A DNA stretch of 42,240 bases from assembly GCA_022564935.1 (NCBI GenBank), contig JADFKM010000011.1, positions 1 through 42,240 of the forward strand, given 5' to 3'. The notes beneath the pieces are model-generated. The model worked only from the letters and a program-made list of their open reading frames with translations. It was not told the DNA's origin and searched no databases. Position numbers and translations under genes: made by a program. Positions 6,911 through 40,743 of the stretch are shown here, piece by piece; positions within the stretch are counted from its first letter, which is position 1, and each line of letters opens with the position of its first letter. Source of the DNA: Candidatus Dadabacteria bacterium. GTDB taxonomy: Bacteria > Desulfobacterota_D > UBA1144 > Nemesobacterales > JADFKM01.

Positions 6911-7936
6911 ATGCGTGTAGCTATGTACTACAACAACAACGATGTGCGCGTAGAAGATATGGACGCCTCGAAGCCGGGCGCGGGCGAAATCGTTATGCGC
7001 ACCGAGGCGAGCGGCGTTTGCGGGAGCGACGTTATGGAGTGGTACCGCATCCCCAAGGCGCCCCTTGTGCTCGGCCATGAGACTTCCGGCGAGGTGGTGG
7101 AAGTGGGGGAGGGGGTGGAGAAGTTCAAGCCCGGAGACAGGGTGGTGGCCACGCACCACGTCCCTTGCAACACATGCTACAACTGTCTCAGGGACAACCA
7201 CTCGGCCTGCGACACACTTAGGAGCACCCACTTTCACCCCGGCGGTTTTTCCGAGTTCATACGCATCCCGGCCGTGAACGTCGACCGGGGCGTCTTCCTG
7301 CTCCCCGACGAGGTCTCTTACGAGGAGGGCTCTTTTGTGGAGCCGCTCGGCTGTGTGGTGCGGGGGCAGAGGGTTGCGGGGTTTCAGCCCGGAGGGAGCG
7401 TGCTCGTTATGGGGAGCGGCATCACGGGGCTTCTCCACATACAGCTTGCCGCCGCTCAGGGCGCGGGCAGGATTGTCGCCACCGACGTACACGGCTACAG
7501 GCTGAAGGCCGCCATCGACTTCGGCGCCGATGAGGCGGTTAATGCCTCTGAGGACATCGCCGGAGCGCTCAGGGAGGCGAACGACGGGAGGCTCGCTGAT
7601 TACGTGGTCGTATGCACGGGAGCGCCGTCTGCGCTGCAGCAGTCCCTTGAGCTTGTGGAGCGCGGGGGGAGCGTCCTTTACTTCGCCCCGTCTGAGCCGC
7701 AGGTGAAGCTCTCCGTACCCTTTAACGACCTGTGGTGGAAGGGAGCAAGAATTTGCAGCTCCTACGCCGCCGCGCCAGCAGACCTTATGCTCGCCCTGGA
7801 GCTGATACGCTCGAAGCGGGTGAACGTGGCGGATATGGTTACACACAGGCTGCCGCTTGCAGAGACCGGCCGTGGCTTCAAGCTCGTCGAGCAGGCCGGC
7901 GACTCCATCAAGGTGATAATCGAGCCGCAGAGGTAG
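6911..7936 (+). CDS. Zinc-dependent medium-chain alcohol/polyol dehydrogenase
   Basis: 341-residue MDR enzyme of the sorbitol/threonine dehydrogenase type. The catalytic zinc site is Cys37 (GVCGSD), His56-Glu57 (GHE) and Glu144 (VEPLGC). The structural zinc lobe has four cysteines at 86, 89, 92 and 100. The Rossmann motif VMGSGITG lies near 167, and the acidic VATDVHG suggests NAD(H). It follows the LsrF-like aldolase by 56 bases on the same strand, suggesting a two-step module in which aldol cleavage or condensation is linked to reduction or oxidation of the product. The substrate cannot be read from the sequence. Confidence 0.88.
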   Translation: MRVAMYYNNNDVRVEDMDASKPGAGEIVMRTEASGVCGSDVMEWYRIPKAPLVLGHETSGEVVEVGEGVEKFKPGDRVVATHHVPCNTCYNCLRDNHSACDTLRSTHFHPGGFSEFIRIPAVNVDRGVFLLPDEVSYEEGSFVEPLGCVVRGQRVAGFQPGGSVLVMGSGITGLLHIQLAAAQGAGRIVATDVHGYRLKAAIDFGADEAVNASEDIAGALREANDGRLADYVVVCTGAPSALQQSLELVERGGSVLYFAPSEPQVKLSVPFNDLWWKGARICSSYAAAPADLMLALELIRSKRVNVADMVTHRLPLAETGRGFKLVEQAGDSIKVIIEPQR

Positions 7937-7965
7937 GGGGGGGAAATAACGCAAACCACAGCGAT

Positions 7966-8353
7966 TTTTATACTACGCATGCGGTATGGTTTTATTTGTT
8001 TTCATATCTCATATTGTTCATCTTCCCTATAATCTGGCCTGTGGTTTATTTGAAATTATTATCGTTTCCTTTTCTAGCCAAATATATAAGAAATCCAATC
8101 CCCACACCTTGGGACTACGTGTTTGGTCAAAGACGTCAACATTGGGTTATAGTGCATTTGGAAGATGGGAGAAAAATAGGAGGCAAATATCACAAAAACT
8201 CCTTTACTTCTTCTTATCCTGTGGAGGAGCAGATTTATTTAGAGAGAAGTATGGGAACTTGATGAAAACGAAGATTTCAAACGGGTGATTGACAGAACAG
8301 AGGGAATGATTATATCTAGAGACGAGATTTTATCCGTAGAGTTATTTTCGTAA
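7966..8353 (+). pseudogene. DUF6338-like membrane protein, 5'-truncated and frameshifted
   Basis: Beginning just after the dehydrogenase, an AT-rich frame reads a transmembrane stretch (VWFYLFSYLILFIFPIIWPV). It is followed by TPWDYVFGQRRQHWVIV, LEDGRKIGG and SFTSSYPVEEQIYL, the conserved core of what I recall as the DUF6338 family. At about 8245-8252 one base is out of frame: the first frame stops at 8260-8262, while the family ending (VWELDENEDFKRVID, then IISRDEILSVELFS) continues in the next frame to TAA at 8351. The usual N-terminal membrane helices are absent; the sequence before 7966 is the end of the dehydrogenase. Base composition is much more AT-rich than the neighbours. It is probably a broken copy of the element found intact at 37205-37861. 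Confidence 0.65.
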
Positions 8354-8373
8354 AATCGTTTGAGGAAAGAATT

Positions 8374-8601
8374 ATGTCACAAAGTCAGAAAAGTGAAAGT
8401 GTAAAAACAGTGGTAAAAGGCAAAAGCCGCGATCATGAAATTTATCAACCAAACCAAAGTACTTGGTTAAATCCTCAACCTCCCCAAGGTGGTTCCGGCT
8501 TGCCGTCAAAGCCTCCCGGCAATGCTGACAACGGTAATACCGCTCAGCAAACAAGCACGCCAGCCAGTTCGAAAGTAATGACAGTAAAGATTGAAGATTA
8601 G
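8374..8601 (+). CDS. Small proline/serine-rich protein, partner of the DUF6338-like gene
   Basis: 75 residues, ATG at 8374 with a good ribosome site (GAGGAAAG), 20 bases after the end of the broken DUF6338-like gene. The protein is polar and probably disordered: MSQSQKSESV, then EIYQPNQSTW, NPQPPQGGSGLPSKPP, then an Asn/Gln/Thr-rich run and a charged end, VKIED. There is no signal peptide, membrane segment or Cys. It resembles in composition and position, not obviously in sequence, the 47-residue proline/lysine-rich protein after the second DUF6338-like gene (37065-37208). Function unknown. That it stayed intact while its neighbour decayed is notable. Confidence 0.6.
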   Translation: MSQSQKSESVKTVVKGKSRDHEIYQPNQSTWLNPQPPQGGSGLPSKPPGNADNGNTAQQTSTPASSKVMTVKIED

Positions 8602-34986: not shown

Positions 34987-36273
34987 TTAGAGCGCAGGGA
35001 AGGACGCCCTTGCGACGGGAAGCTCGCTCCACTGCGTTGTGTAGCGGTTTGAGAGCTTCGAGCGGCGCATCTGCCAGCGCTGCTTCACCCCCGCGGCGGC
35101 GTACCTGAGCGCGGCGCTCCCCCACCGGGCGTTTATGCCGTCCACGGCGCGCATGAGCGCCCTGTTGCGGTTATAGCTGTTGCAGGGGGCAAGCAGGTTC
35201 AGCTGCACCTCGCCTTCGGGAACGATATCGGTCAGCATGACGCCGGCTTTCTTGTACCTGTAGCCCGCTCTGTATATCCTCTCCAGGCCGTTGTGGACAT
35301 GGCTGATAAGCTCGGGGGTGTGTGAGCTTGGGACGGACAGCCTCGAGGTCGCGGAGTTCGAGTACTGCGGGTCGTCGCTGAACTTGTTGGTTTTAATGAA
35401 AACGGAGATGCAGGAAGCAATAGAGCGCTGGGAGCGCATCTTCTCGGCCGCCCTCGACGCGTGTACGGCTACGGCCTCTTTGAGGTCGGCGAGCGTCTCC
35501 GCGGGCACACCGAACGACCGGGAGCTTATGATGCACTTCTTCGGCGGGGGCGCCTGCTCCAGGGATACGCACGGCGTGCCCCGCAGCTCCCACACGGTGT
35601 GAAGCCCCGCGACGCTCATGCGCTTCCTCACCCACTCGTCCGGCGCGTCCCGGAGCTGGAGCGCCGTGGATATGCCGTTTTCATTGAGCATCTTCGCGTG
35701 CCTGCGCCCCACTCCCCACACGTCGCCAACCTCGATTTCGTCCATGTACTCGTCTTGCTGCCGGTGCCCGCTTATGTCGAACACGCCGTTATGTTCGTTA
35801 TGCTTTTTCGCATACTGCGCCGCCGCCTTGGCCAGGGTCTTGGTGCTCCCTATGCCCACCGATACAGGGACGCCCGTCCAGCGCTTCACGGTGTTTTTGA
35901 TGAGCCTGCCGTATTCGGTGAGGCCGTTGTATGCGCTCCCGTCGATGAGGAGAAAGGCCTCGTCTATGGAGTAGACCTCCACCTCGGGGCTGAACCGCTC
36001 TAGCGTGTCCATGACGCGCCTCGACATGTCGGCGTAGAGGGTGTAGTTCGAGGAGAAGACGCTTATACGGTGTTTCTTTATCGTGCCCCTGCACTCGAAC
36101 ACCGGGGCGCCCATCCTTACACCTATCTCCTTCACCTCGTTCGAGCGCGCGATGACGCAGCCGTCGTTGTTCGACATCACGATCACGGGCCTGCCTTCGA
36201 GCGCCGGGTCGAACACCCTCTCGCACGACACGTAGAAGTTGTTGCAGTCGATAAGGAAGAACGCCTTTGCCAT
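34987..36273 (-). CDS. umuC: Y-family DNA polymerase V catalytic subunit UmuC
   Basis: 428-residue translesion polymerase. FFLIDCNNFYVSCERVF holds the first catalytic Asp (Asp9). YSIDEAFLLI holds Asp104 and Glu105. GVPVSVGIGSTKTLAKAAA, VWGVGRRHAKML (helix-hairpin-helix) and the UmuC-specific C-terminal domain are present. It lies 2 bases after umuD, the normal umuDC arrangement. After UmuD cleavage it would bypass damage as UmuD'2C. Length matches E. coli UmuC. Confidence 0.96.
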   Translation of the reverse strand: MAKAFFLIDCNNFYVSCERVFDPALEGRPVIVMSNNDGCVIARSNEVKEIGVRMGAPVFECRGTIKKHRISVFSSNYTLYADMSRRVMDTLERFSPEVEVYSIDEAFLLIDGSAYNGLTEYGRLIKNTVKRWTGVPVSVGIGSTKTLAKAAAQYAKKHNEHNGVFDISGHRQQDEYMDEIEVGDVWGVGRRHAKMLNENGISTALQLRDAPDEWVRKRMSVAGLHTVWELRGTPCVSLEQAPPPKKCIISSRSFGVPAETLADLKEAVAVHASRAAEKMRSQRSIASCISVFIKTNKFSDDPQYSNSATSRLSVPSSHTPELISHVHNGLERIYRAGYRYKKAGVMLTDIVPEGEVQLNLLAPCNSYNRNRALMRAVDGINARWGSAALRYAAAGVKQRWQMRRSKLSNRYTTQWSELPVARASFPAL

Positions 36274-36275
36274 CC

Positions 36276-36704
36276 CTACTCCACTTGATGGATTGCGTGC
36301 GTGACGACGCCCCAGACCTCGAAGTCCATCTCCTTTGTGACTTCGAGCGGGCCGAACTCCGGGTTTTCCGCCGCGAGGAACAGCCCGTCAGCCGTCTTTT
36401 TGATGCGCTTTACGGTAAGCCCGCCGTTGAGCACCGCTATTACGACGTCTCTGTCCGAGGCTTCGAGCGCGCGGTCTACGATCAGAATGTCGCCGGAGTG
36501 TATGCCCGCGTCGACCATGGAGTCTCCCTCCACGCGCACGAAAAAGGTGGCCGCCGGGTGCTTTATGAGGAGCTGGTTCAGGTCGAGCTTCGTGTCCACG
36601 TAGTCATCTGCCGGGGAGGGGAAGCCCGCGGGCGTCCTGGTAAGCATGAGCGGGCACTTCAGCTCCGTGCCCTGCTCCGACCTAAATATATCGCTTATTA
36701 GCAT
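36276..36704 (-). CDS. umuD: UmuD, SOS-cleaved accessory subunit of polymerase V
   Basis: 142 residues from the ATG at 36704, which has AAAGAGGG in front and matches E. coli UmuD in length. Starts further upstream (a double ATG at 36725/36722, or 36938) add unconserved sequence. AGFPSPADDYVD contains the self-cleavage bond Ala26-Gly27. GDSM gives Ser62 and LTVKR gives Lys99, the Ser-Lys dyad of the S24 family. There is no N-terminal DNA-binding domain, so it is not LexA. A palindrome 25 bases upstream is a likely SOS operator. Confidence 0.93.
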   Translation of the reverse strand: MLISDIFRSEQGTELKCPLMLTRTPAGFPSPADDYVDTKLDLNQLLIKHPAATFFVRVEGDSMVDAGIHSGDILIVDRALEASDRDVVIAVLNGGLTVKRIKKTADGLFLAAENPEFGPLEVTKEMDFEVWGVVTHAIHQVE

Positions 36705-36729
36705 ACCGTCCCTCTTTGCCATCATATTA

Positions 36730-36746
36730 TATGATTTTATATCATA
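36730..36746 (-). promoter_or_regulatory. Palindrome upstream of umuD, candidate SOS operator
   Basis: TATGAT, five bases, ATCATA: perfect 6-base arms in an AT-rich stretch, 25 bases before the umuD start. It is not the E. coli CTG-N10-CAG box nor the Bacillus GAAC-GTTC box. Position and symmetry fit a lineage-specific LexA site. Confidence 0.4.
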
Positions 36747-37064
36747 GATATGGAGTTTGTCAACTGCGAATTTGATTGTTATTTGGGATTTGGCATAAGA
36801 TGAGGTTTTGGGCTGTGGACTGAGTGATGGCCTATGTATGTTCCAATGTTTTATAGAGAGTAGAAATGGATGGCTTTTTATGGAGAAAGAGTTTACTTTG
36901 CTTTTTGGTTCATGGTGTAAGGTTAAGGCGATGAGCAAACAACGCGGAGGGAGTAGGAAGGCTCGCGAAAATCAAAGGTGCGGAGAGATAACTAAAGCTT
37001 TTATAAAACATCGATAATATTTAATGTGCTGAACCATTTATCCTTTGTTGCTCTGCTTGCGTTG
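36747..37064. other. Gap between umuD and the small proline-rich gene
   Basis: 318 AT-rich bases. Frames here are short; nothing recognisable. It belongs to the AT-rich island that continues to about 37.95 kb. Confidence 0.4.
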
Positions 37065-37208
37065 TTACCTATCTGTTTTCTTGGATGGTCTTGAAGTGTT
37101 AAGTTTGGGCGGCGGTTTACTAGGTCTTGCGGTGGATGGTTTGGGAGACACCCTACCTTTTTTAATTAAACGTGCTTCCTTTAAATCTTTTTCATGCTTT
37201 ATAATCAT
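37065..37208 (-). CDS. Small proline/lysine-rich protein overlapping the DUF6338-like gene
   Basis: 47 residues, encoded from an ATG that overlaps the upstream stop as ATGA (37208-37205). It starts MIIKHEKDLKEARLIKKG and then runs into a Pro/Ser/Lys tail with SPKPSTARPSKPP and the repeated RPSK ending TSRPSKKTDR. It is strongly basic, probably disordered, with no membrane segment. The tight overlap implies translational coupling and a joint function. Its counterpart at the first DUF6338-like locus is the 75-residue protein at 8374-8601. Function unknown. It is too short for most gene callers. Confidence 0.6.
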   Translation of the reverse strand: MIIKHEKDLKEARLIKKGRVSPKPSTARPSKPPPKLNTSRPSKKTDR

Positions 37209-37861
37209 TTGGTTTCCTCTATTTCTTCATTGTCAGTATTATAGCTGTTGCCAAGGATAAATTCTACATTTAGTTTTCTTTTATCTCTTGCGAAGTATAA
37301 AACTGGCAGACAATATTGCTTTTCCCCACTAGAAGAGTTAAATACTTCAACTTCTATAAGAAGAAATTCTTCATCATCATCTGTTATATCAGAATATGCT
37401 TCTAGCCATCCTTTATAAGTTAGATTGTTTTCTAGATCTCTGATAACAACCCATCCTCCATAATTGTCTAGTGTATATCCCCAAACACCTAAGTTTCCAA
37501 GGAACTCAGAAACTTTCAGTTTGTAAGCGATTCTGTATAGAACCCTATATTTATGCAAAGCGGTGATAATAAAAGCTATAGGAAATGAAAGTATTGTAAC
37601 CCAGGTTATCTCTTCGAAATTTAAAGGGGTTGAAGAATTAGTTAGGCTTTCTAAGAAAAAGAATGGTAGGTCTAGAAAAAAAACGAGTTTGGTTACTAAG
37701 TAATAAGTAAAATAGCATACAAAACCGTAAATTAATGAAAACAGAACTATTTTGTGCAATTTTGCCTCTTTGTGGGGCGTTAAAGCATCGATAATATAGA
37801 AAGCGATTAAACCAGGAAGGAATATGAGAATTAGTTTGAAGGTAAATTCTGAAATTTCCAT
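37205..37861 (-). CDS. DUF6338-like membrane protein, intact
   Basis: 218 residues. Three membrane helices: about 7-26 (TFKLILIFLPGLIAFYIIDA), 37-60 (KIVLFSLIYGFVCYFTYYLV) and 82-102 (EEITWVTILSFPIAFIITAL). A soluble beta-rich C-terminal half follows (WGYTLDNYGGWVVIRDLENN, TYKGWLEAYSDITDDDEEFL). The early PGLIAF and the W-V-V-I-x-D-L...Y-x-G strand pattern match the general plan of DUF6338 proteins, of which a broken copy lies at 7966-8353; similarity between the two is in plan more than in residues. Base composition is very AT-rich compared with umuDC beside it, a sign of transfer. Function unknown; inner-membrane location expected. Confidence 0.65.
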   Translation of the reverse strand: MEISEFTFKLILIFLPGLIAFYIIDALTPHKEAKLHKIVLFSLIYGFVCYFTYYLVTKLVFFLDLPFFFLESLTNSSTPLNFEEITWVTILSFPIAFIITALHKYRVLYRIAYKLKVSEFLGNLGVWGYTLDNYGGWVVIRDLENNLTYKGWLEAYSDITDDDEEFLLIEVEVFNSSSGEKQYCLPVLYFARDKRKLNVEFILGNSYNTDNEEIEETK

Positions 37862-38051
37862 ACTTTAGTAAAAACATATCGAGATAAAAAATATATTTGA
37901 GGTAATTGTATACAACACCGAAACTTTAAACAAGATTCAGGTCGTGAACAGCATCGTATTAGAATATACACATAATTTGTTCAACTTTTCAACCAAACTT
38001 ATCTTTACCCTCCGCTTGCACCGTTTCACCCCTTTATGTAACATTCCCACA

Positions 38052-39017
38052 GTGACGGCCCAAAAAAAAATCCCGAAAAAATCCCAGCAAAATTTACAGC
38101 AAAAATTCCAAAAGAAATTCACGGTAGCCCTAGTGCAGATGGCGGCCACAGAAGACCCCGTCTATAACCTCAGGCGCGCAGTATCGAAGGTGCGCGAAGC
38201 CGCCAAGGATGGGGCGTCCGTCATATGCCTGCCGGAGCTTTTCCGCACGAGGTATTTCTGCCAGAGCGAGGATACGGCGGCGTTCGAGCTTGCAGAGCCT
38301 GTGCCGGGGCCCACAACCGATGCGCTGTCGAAAGTCGCAAAAGGTACGGGCGCGGTGGTGATTGCCCCCATTTTCGAGAAGAGGGCGGCGGGAGTCTACC
38401 ACAACAGCGCAGCCGTTATTGATGCGGACGGATTCCTGTCTGATCTGCACGAATTCCAGTGGCGCGAGTTGCCGTTCCACGTGGCTCCCGATCACGGGAT
38501 CGTGGCGACGATAGAGCGAGCATGTGAGGAGGAGAAACTCGCCCTGCTACGAGATCTGGCACTTCTTTCCGGCCAGAAGGTATTGGGACCCAAAGCTGAA
38601 CACACCGTCTGGCTTTGGCCGGCCATCGAGTGTATCCGGGACACAGTGGTACTGTGCAGTCTAATCCAAGAGGGGAAACCACGATTCCGACGAAGAGAGG
38701 TTCTGGCTCTCATTGAACAGCAGTTCCCGGAGCATTCTCCTGTGGCAGAACAGATCTACTGGTACAAGGCAAGCGAGGATGGGCGGAAGGCGTTGCGCGC
38801 ATTGCTCAGCTCAGAACCCAGAGTGCGCGAACGTGAACTGCGGCCCATCACGGAAGATGTCATTTCCTTCTGGCACGCGGCAATGGCTGAGGTAGACACG
38901 TACTTACTGGAAGGACGCTCCCTGATCCCCTTCGCGAGGGAGGACTGGAAGGAGAGCAATCACGCAGCCTATGAGCGATTCCTTGAGGATCACTTGGCGA
39001 AGACGCCTTCCATCTAG
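38052..39017 (+). pseudogene. Truncated N-carbamoylputrescine amidase fused to foreign sequence
   Basis: From a probable GTG at 38052 (the frame is open from 37944), residues FTVALVQMAATEDPVYNLRR, VICLPELFRTRYFC and PVPGPTTDALSKVAKGTGAV are the N-terminal third of a nitrilase-family amidase of the AguB type (N-carbamoylputrescine to putrescine). The homology stops at AAVIDADG (about 38427). The catalytic Lys and Cys that should follow are absent. The remaining roughly 195 residues (SDLHEFQWRELPFHV onward, ending DHLAKTPSI) are unrelated, GC-rich, and unknown to me. This marks the right-hand border of the core chromosome segment. Only the catalytic Glu of the triad remains, so the amidase is dead. 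Confidence 0.65.
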
Positions 39018-39134: not shown

Positions 39135-39237
39135 AGCATTGCCTCATGTTTTTTGCTACCCTCGGTAGGCCGTTGCCTCATATATTCTGCTACCCCTTTG
39201 TCGTTCGTGGGAGCGGAAAATGGCGAGGAGGATCAGC

Positions 39238-40743
39238 ATGGCGACCAAACGGGAGCTCGTGGCGGAGGTTGGGCGGCGATACCGGACGGCTACGCGCGGC
39301 GAGAAGCGCCGGATCATGGATGAGTTCGTGGCCCTGACGGGGTACCACCGGAAGCACGCCTTGAGGCTGCTCAACGGCGCTGAGACGTGCTACCGGCGCT
39401 CGGGTCGGCCGCGCTCCCGGATCTACGACGAGGCCGTGCATGAGGCCCTCATCATCGTCTGGGAGGCCGCCGACCGGATCTGCGGCAAGCGCCTCAAGGC
39501 CCTCATGCCGATCATGGTGGGGGCCTTGGAGCGGCATGGTCACCTGGTTCTGGGTACCGAACTGAGGGAGCTCCTACTGGGCATCAGCGCGGCCACGATG
39601 GACAGGCTCCTTGTGCCACAGCGGGCTGACGCCTCGGGACGACGGCGGCGCCGCCGCCGGTCCAACGGGCTTTTGCGTAACCAGATTCCGGTGCGCACCT
39701 TCGCCGATTGGGGCGACCCGCCGCCTGGGTTTGTGGAAGCCGACCTGGTGGCCCACAACGGCGGCATCAGCGAAGGCAGTTGTGTCCACACGCTGGTGTT
39801 GACCGACATCGCCTCGGGCTGGACGGAGTGCGTGCCACTGCTCGTGCGAGAGCAGGGCCTGGTCGTAGAAGCGATAGAGATGACACGAGGCCAACTTCCC
39901 TTCGCACTGCAGGGCCTGGATACGGACAACGACGGCGCCTTCATCAACGAGAGCCTCCTTAAGTACACCAGGGACGAAGGTCTCACCCAGACCCGCTCGC
40001 GCGCCTACCGCAAGAACGACCAGGCCTGGGTCGAGCAGAAAAACGGGGCCGTGGTGCGGCGTCTGGTCGGGCATGGGCGCCTGCAGGGGGTCAAGGCCGC
40101 CCAGACGCTGTCCCGTCTGTATTCCGTTTCGCGGCTCTACGTGAACTACTTCCAGCCCTCCTTCAAGCTCAAGGAGAAACTCCGACAAGGCGCCAAGGTG
40201 ACCAAGCACTACCATCCACCGGCCACCCCTTGCCAGCGCTTGCTGGCATCCGAACACCTCGGAAACGACCAGAAGCAGACTCTTCGGGAGCTTTCCGACT
40301 CGTTGGATCCACCGCGGCTGCTCAACGAGATCCGGTCGGCGCAGTCGGCGCTAGCCCGGCTCTCCGCGCCGGACGAACCGACCGAGGACTCCTCCGGTGA
40401 CAACGAGCTTGCTCTCTTCCTGGCGCAACTGCCCACGCTGTGGCGCGAGGGAGACGCTCGGCCGACACACCGACAGCCTCCTGCCGCGGCTCACCACTGG
40501 CGTACTCGCCCAGATCCCTTCGCTTCGGTGTGGTCAGAGGTGGAGACCTGGTTGGTCGACGAGCCCGACGCCACGGCGAAGTCCCTCTTCCAGCGGCTCC
40601 AGAGAGAACACCCCTCGACGTACGCCCCCGGTCAGCTCCGTACCCTGCAACGCCGCGTACGGGAGTGGCGCCGTGCCATGGCCCGGAAGCTCATCTTCGG
40701 TAGCGCCGTGGCGGCCGACGGGAGAGCATATTCAAACCCATGA
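39238..40743 (+). CDS. DDE transposase (integrase-core, ISNCY-like)
   Basis: 501 residues from ATG 39238, which has AGGAGG six bases before it; an ATG at 39220 is less well placed. An N-terminal helix-turn-helix part (GYHRKHALRLLNG) is followed by an arginine-rich run, then the RNase-H-like core. Core motifs are FVEADLVAHNG (Asp169), LDTDNDGAFIN (Asp230) and NDQAWVEQKNG (Glu266). The C-terminal region, SRLYVNYFQPSFKLKEK, is typical of this transposase group. It moves the element delimited by the 27-bp repeats. GC-rich and not adapted to the core genome. Confidence 0.9.
   Translation: MATKRELVAEVGRRYRTATRGEKRRIMDEFVALTGYHRKHALRLLNGAETCYRRSGRPRSRIYDEAVHEALIIVWEAADRICGKRLKALMPIMVGALERHGHLVLGTELRELLLGISAATMDRLLVPQRADASGRRRRRRRSNGLLRNQIPVRTFADWGDPPPGFVEADLVAHNGGISEGSCVHTLVLTDIASGWTECVPLLVREQGLVVEAIEMTRGQLPFALQGLDTDNDGAFINESLLKYTRDEGLTQTRSRAYRKNDQAWVEQKNGAVVRRLVGHGRLQGVKAAQTLSRLYSVSRLYVNYFQPSFKLKEKLRQGAKVTKHYHPPATPCQRLLASEHLGNDQKQTLRELSDSLDPPRLLNEIRSAQSALARLSAPDEPTEDSSGDNELALFLAQLPTLWREGDARPTHRQPPAAAHHWRTRPDPFASVWSEVETWLVDEPDATAKSLFQRLQREHPSTYAPGQLRTLQRRVREWRRAMARKLIFGSAVAADGRAYSNP

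Follow-up and report, generated by a model that had tools for sequence, protein, structure and literature searches.

What does a tiny proline-rich reading frame do immediately behind the gene for a membrane protein, and is this arrangement more than a peculiarity of one genome? The question is raised by a 42,240-nucleotide stretch of DNA from a Candidatus Dadabacteria bacterium (hereafter the window), in which two overlapping genes occupy positions 37065-37861 and a comparable locus is found at 7937-8601. A first-pass annotation, made from the sequence alone, had described the former as a DUF6338-like gene joined through an ATGA overlap to a small Pro-rich gene, and both open reading frames, of 218 and 47 aa, are confirmed.

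The window pair and its setting

The features on which the analysis is based are the following.

37205..37861, minus strand: DUF6338-like membrane protein, 218 aa (open reading frame, Pfam, AlphaFold2, plasmid homologues)
37065..37208, minus strand: Pro-rich basic partner, 47 aa, probably disordered (ATGA overlap, SD-like GAGG)
36740..38110, no strand: AT-rich island with the window pair, about 33% GC (composition)
7937..8353, plus strand: canonical DUF6338 remnant (E 1.2e-21, profile positions 76-168)
8374..8601, plus strand: Pro-rich ORF, 75 aa, intact-looking, partner to the remnant (YQP...NPQPPQGGSGLPSKPP)

The ATGA comprises the end of the 218-aa ORF and the start of the 47-aa ORF, both on the minus strand, and an SD-like GAGG lies upstream of the ATG of the partner (37208-37065), whose sequence is MIIKHEKDLKEARLIKKGRVSPKPSTARPSKPPPKLNTSRPSKKTDR. 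The AT-rich island noted in the first-pass annotation is evident, with 32-33% GC in a window that is mostly above 50% (50-60% around the pair). Membership in DUF6338, which had also been proposed, stands as homology but not by the Pfam cut-off: a Pfam profile search with the window protein gives 21.7 bits against PF19865 (E=1.7e-4), below the whole-protein gathering cut-off of 26.5 bits. Members of the window clade (L036-L039) score 32-49 bits and a canonical protein (L107) scores 123 bits; plasmid relatives of the window protein carry the DUF6338 annotation (tblastn), and the clade relatives that pass the cut-off have the same kind of partner. Homology to canonical DUF6338 extends over the transmembrane (TM) region and the beta domain (hhalign, A3 against A5: 79% probability, E 1.5e-5, 155 columns). 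These comparisons make the window protein a divergent, DUF6338-like one that falls short of the Pfam threshold and belongs to a distinct sister clade with good support. Among phage isolate records, the window protein had no match and clade A had one.

Genes resembling umuD and umuC (36276-36938 and 34987-36273) lie next to the pair on the same strand, across a gap of about 340 bp in which no terminator was found. The SOS polymerase is thus indeed a neighbour, but no other locus showed umuDC nearby, and a functional link was rejected because this neighbourhood is confined to the window and because of the length of the gap. Housekeeping genes (biotin genes, priA and a gyrB-like gene) are also found in the vicinity. 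On the other side, an ORF at 37944-39017 retains only the N-terminal part of a carbon-nitrogen hydrolase (60-167) fused to unrelated sequence, and adjoins a GC-rich gene that matches the rve integrase core (39220-40743); the two give the appearance of a gene interrupted by a mobile element.

The second locus shows the gene order that had been claimed for it, but its DUF6338 part is a truncated and frameshifted remnant. The match begins directly after the stop of an unrelated gene (7936), and we regard it as a remnant because it starts at about profile position 76, so that the N-terminal third is missing, and changes frame near 8245. A fragment at 7930-8262 nevertheless scores 77.7 bits against PF19865, and the 75-aa partner (8374-8601) resembles the one at locus L080. 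Within this 1.99-Mb genome DUF6338 is matched only twice, both times on the 42-kb contig. The PADLOC 2023 defence models recognised no family in either window pair, the window's partners gave nothing above chance in Pfam, PHROGs, NCBIfam and PADLOC, and Rfam found no match in the window and two Vibrio loci.

A conserved pairing with a separately coded partner

Whether the pairing is general was addressed with DUF6338 loci gathered by methods blind to the partner: a Pfam model run over 928 genomes, a search for the window clade in 84,980 species genomes, and plasmid and phage records, E. coli genomes and viral contigs. Broken or very weak DUF6338 matches were excluded from the pairing count, and loci were clustered at 80% identity. 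A partner was defined as an ORF of 30-100 aa that starts at -60 to +60 nt of the DUF6338 stop and whose residues are no less than 9% Pro and no more than 20% hydrophobic; other ORFs of at least 150 aa in the same loci served as control. By this definition a Pro-rich partner follows DUF6338 in 79 of 91 non-redundant loci (87%), compared with 45 of 666 control ORFs (7%; Fisher p = 4e-61; an initial, redundant control count gave 36 of 522). The prediction of the first-pass annotation, that DUF6338 homologues would be followed by such an ORF, is thus borne out, and the pairing is conserved. It is present in 43 of the 45 viral-contig loci examined. Of the 12 loci that fall outside this definition, at least four (L029, L033, L071, L105) do have an evident partner, which is frameshifted or fails a threshold, and about 8% of the surveyed DUF6338 genes are without an evident one. 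The surveyed partners have a median length of 52 aa, 18% Pro and a net charge of +5, and some loci hold one to three tandem, diverged copies.

The partners evolve under purifying selection. In five related partner pairs (a sixth was identical), differences at codon positions 1, 2 and 3 number 22, 11 and 85, and the pooled pS and pN are 0.40 and 0.058. The codon-position data and the control rate together rule out a chance Pro-rich ORF. It is also conceivable that the partner represents a programmed-frameshift extension of DUF6338. However, the reading frame of the partner with respect to DUF6338 can be any of the three (12, 37 and 30 cases), which excludes a fixed frameshift product, and SD-like sites precede 57 of the 79 partners as opposed to 12 of 79 matched controls. 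The partner is thus coded separately from DUF6338.

Despite their low complexity, the partners carry recognisable motifs. In clade A the partners contain repeats of GYxP, often with PPPKKP or NPPxxGxxGKK at the end, clade-B partners have poly-proline tails, and partners in clade C, to which the window belongs, contain EGYxxKGGxN...RPPPPxP or the variant E..R..KG.NKP...KPxxPPP; the window partner aligns with the latter clade as E..R..KG...KP....KPSKPPP. Across the 79 partners GYxP is counted 75 times, distributed over 34 of them, where shuffled sequences lead one to expect 1.1 occurrences. The partner motif type tracks the DUF6338 clade: on the DUF6338 tree the motif class changes 11 times, against a shuffled mean of 36 (0 of 200 shuffles as low), a result that is supportive rather than independent because the classes were set after inspection and the window's label comes from a lenient form of the pattern.

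The pair is not entirely undescribed, as the first-pass annotation had supposed, because one such operon has been reported. In Pseudomonas stutzeri ATCC 14405, mass spectrometry identified three Pro-rich proteins of fewer than 50 aa encoded in an operon with DUF6338 (PMC10433244), in the order seen in the surveyed pairs; they were taken to lack conservation and perhaps to be de novo genes. They were well expressed and DUF6338 was undetected, membrane fractions having been left out of that analysis (PMC10433244). From position, size and composition we infer that these proteins belong to the partner class. The partners tested could be assigned to no protein family (nothing above chance in Pfam and PHROGs), and our findings suggest that they form a conserved, motif-bearing class rather than de novo genes.

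Predicted architecture of the DUF6338-like protein

The first-pass annotation had envisaged a three-helix membrane protein with a beta-rich half, and structure prediction agrees. An AlphaFold2 model of the window protein (22-sequence alignment, pLDDT 80, pTM 0.62) places TM helices at 5-27, 35-62 and 82-104, followed by short amphipathic helices and a five-stranded barrel at 137-202, with the chain ending about 15 residues past the last strand. DUF6338 (PF19865) itself likewise has three TM helices and a C-terminal beta domain. Loop charges, inspected in the light of the positive-inside rule, predict an N-out, C-in topology, so that the C-terminus would be inside. Compared with the PDB, the window barrel reaches a VIA-align Z of 9.4 (2.0-2.1 A over about 70 residues), and all 50 matches listed are Sm, LSm or SmAP proteins. 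A clade-A prophage protein is predicted to have the same architecture, with Z 8.4 to SmAP and 7.8 to Hfq. We conclude from these models of medium confidence (pTM 0.62 and 0.56) that the beta domain is, by prediction and in two clades, an Sm/LSm-like five-stranded barrel. Profile searches of PDB sequences found no Sm protein, and a BFVD fold search returned weak uncharacterised matches only.

The barrel fold is shared with Sm, LSm and Hfq proteins (VIA Z 8-9), from which the DUF6338-like protein differs in its predicted membrane anchor and in lacking an Sm sequence match. In MscS, too, three TM helices lead directly into an Sm-like beta domain beneath them, the layout predicted here. Its sm domain is located below the pore (PMC1890815). 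MscS additionally contains a C-terminal alpha/beta vestibule domain, which is missing from the window protein, and the DUF6338-like protein differs further by its peptide partner; no sequence match to MscS was found, and MscS is absent among the PDB matches listed, those lists being filled by Sm proteins.

Mobile and defence contexts, and what the pair may do

DUF6338 was present in a few per cent of genomes where this was tested, a patchy, accessory pattern, and its hosts include chromosomes of several phyla and of the archaeon Haloferax volcanii. The pair is carried on plasmids, phage-plasmids included; in Vibrio it lies alone between attC-like repeats 944 bp apart, as an integron-like cassette among toxin-antitoxin cassettes. 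Close relatives occur in 6 of 5,426 E. coli genomes. In the E. coli yfhL prophage the pair sits between genes for a DEAD-box helicase and a VRR-NUC protein (L107 6567-9257; also L109), and in L158 this variable cargo slot is filled by BstA (PADLOC E 1.4e-115), a prophage-encoded abortive infection protein (PMC8585504) that is unrelated to the pair. In further relatives (L159, L160) the slot contains a cytosine methyltransferase or unknown genes, including one for an uncharacterised 236-aa protein. A comparison of the insertion site of the E. coli GF131 prophage matched only the tRNA elsewhere.

Other loci place the pair beside recognisable immune genes. At L054 (3660-5848) it begins 11 bp after a CBASS-type cyclase and a 2TM/SLATT effector. 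A small TIR protein and a caspase-like protease lie next to it on plasmids of Proteus and Curtobacterium (L057 5817-7185 and L100 2523-3886), distant hosts with caspases 46% identical, and the TIR+caspase settings include a Tn7-like element. At L056 the pair lies near DUF4062, which has been reported to act as an NADase against phages (PMC13174449). In Acinetobacter (L103 1-4778, L059, L105), a WYL regulator, a metallohydrolase and a fused E1/JAB protein are encoded ahead of DUF6338 and one or two Pro-rich partners, in what is a candidate for an undescribed defence operon; the metallohydrolase is weakly LmuA-like. At chromosomal loci of the window clade, 96 neighbours match 77 PADLOC models at E<=1e-15 (among them AbiE, type IIG RM, DISARM, Dpd and CBASS phospholipase) and 101 control proteins match 7, figures that count models rather than genes because the models are redundant, with a control drawn from few genomes and for the window clade only. 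The mobile or defence islands expected by the first-pass annotation are therefore frequent but not universal, since other loci lie among housekeeping genes. In three alphaproteobacterial loci (L018, L027, L031), a common gene for an enzyme of about 410-420 aa begins about 165-180 nt past DUF6338, which indicates a chromosomal location in that lineage as if stably inherited. This enzyme resembles phenylacetate-CoA ligase.

How might such a pair act? It is probably an immune device, given that prophages, plasmids and integrons carry it and that it often neighbours known anti-phage genes or takes their place. The explanation towards which we lean, at somewhat better than even confidence, is a mobile two-gene anti-phage module in which a membrane Sm-like ring is controlled by a disordered motif peptide. 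We envision a scenario whereby the DUF6338-like protein, with its three TM helices in the inner membrane and its Sm/LSm-like barrel in the cytoplasm, probably forms rings, as do other Sm proteins and MscS. The short, basic and disordered partner, whose short linear motifs (GYxP; EGYxxKGGxN...RPPPP; poly-P) number one to four and are specific to the clade, would probably bind the Sm-like domains, several motifs per ring, and thereby set the state of the membrane complex. Infection might disturb this interaction such that the ring permeabilises or alters the membrane, and the most likely role would be anti-phage, by abortive infection or exclusion. We infer oligomerisation, binding, phage defence and the division of the two genes into effector and regulator; the membrane sensor or effector with a disordered partner suggested by the first-pass annotation fits the predicted fold. 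More tentatively, the pair may constitute a new type of immune device, a ring pore held or triggered by a multivalent peptide through GYxP, KGGxN and PPP motifs and sometimes wired to CBASS, TIR-caspase or E1-JAB modules, which might cleave or modify the peptide.

Alternatively, DUF6338 may be a membrane toxin and the peptide its labile antitoxin, an addiction pair that maintains plasmids, prophages and integron cassettes. The small, overlapping second gene, the carriage on plasmids and phage-plasmids and the lone Vibrio cassette among toxin-antitoxin cassettes are all in line with this idea. Yet one to three tandem, diverged copies would be unusual for an antitoxin, the P. stutzeri partners were found without DUF6338 (with the caveat about membrane fractions), and contact with defence operons is repeated; we thus consider an addiction pair unlikely, while noting its overlap with the anti-phage explanation. 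Exclusion factors are typically small membrane proteins, and the pair does occupy accessory-gene positions in prophages, so that it might instead stop DNA entry of competing phages without cell death, with the peptide as an assembly factor. The wide occurrence outside phages, up to Haloferax volcanii, and the cytoplasmic position of the Sm-like domain count against superinfection exclusion, which appears distinctly unlikely. The fold match to the RNA-binding Sm, SmAP and Hfq proteins, finally, would be explained by a membrane-tethered regulator whose Sm-like domain binds RNA and is modulated by the peptide. In canonical Sm proteins, Asp/Asn of Sm1 and Arg-Gly of Sm2 contact RNA. These positions are not evident on inspection of the conserved strands, and the conserved partner is a peptide, which leaves RNA binding improbable.

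Proteins so small and of such low complexity had escaped annotation, and here they emerge as a class of conserved partners of a widespread domain of unknown function. The PF19865 family description names neither function nor partner, and DUF6338 now gains its first partner along with a predicted fold and a role that can be tested. Should the pair prove to serve defence, control of a membrane Sm-like ring by a disordered motif peptide would be a principle new to bacterial immunity.
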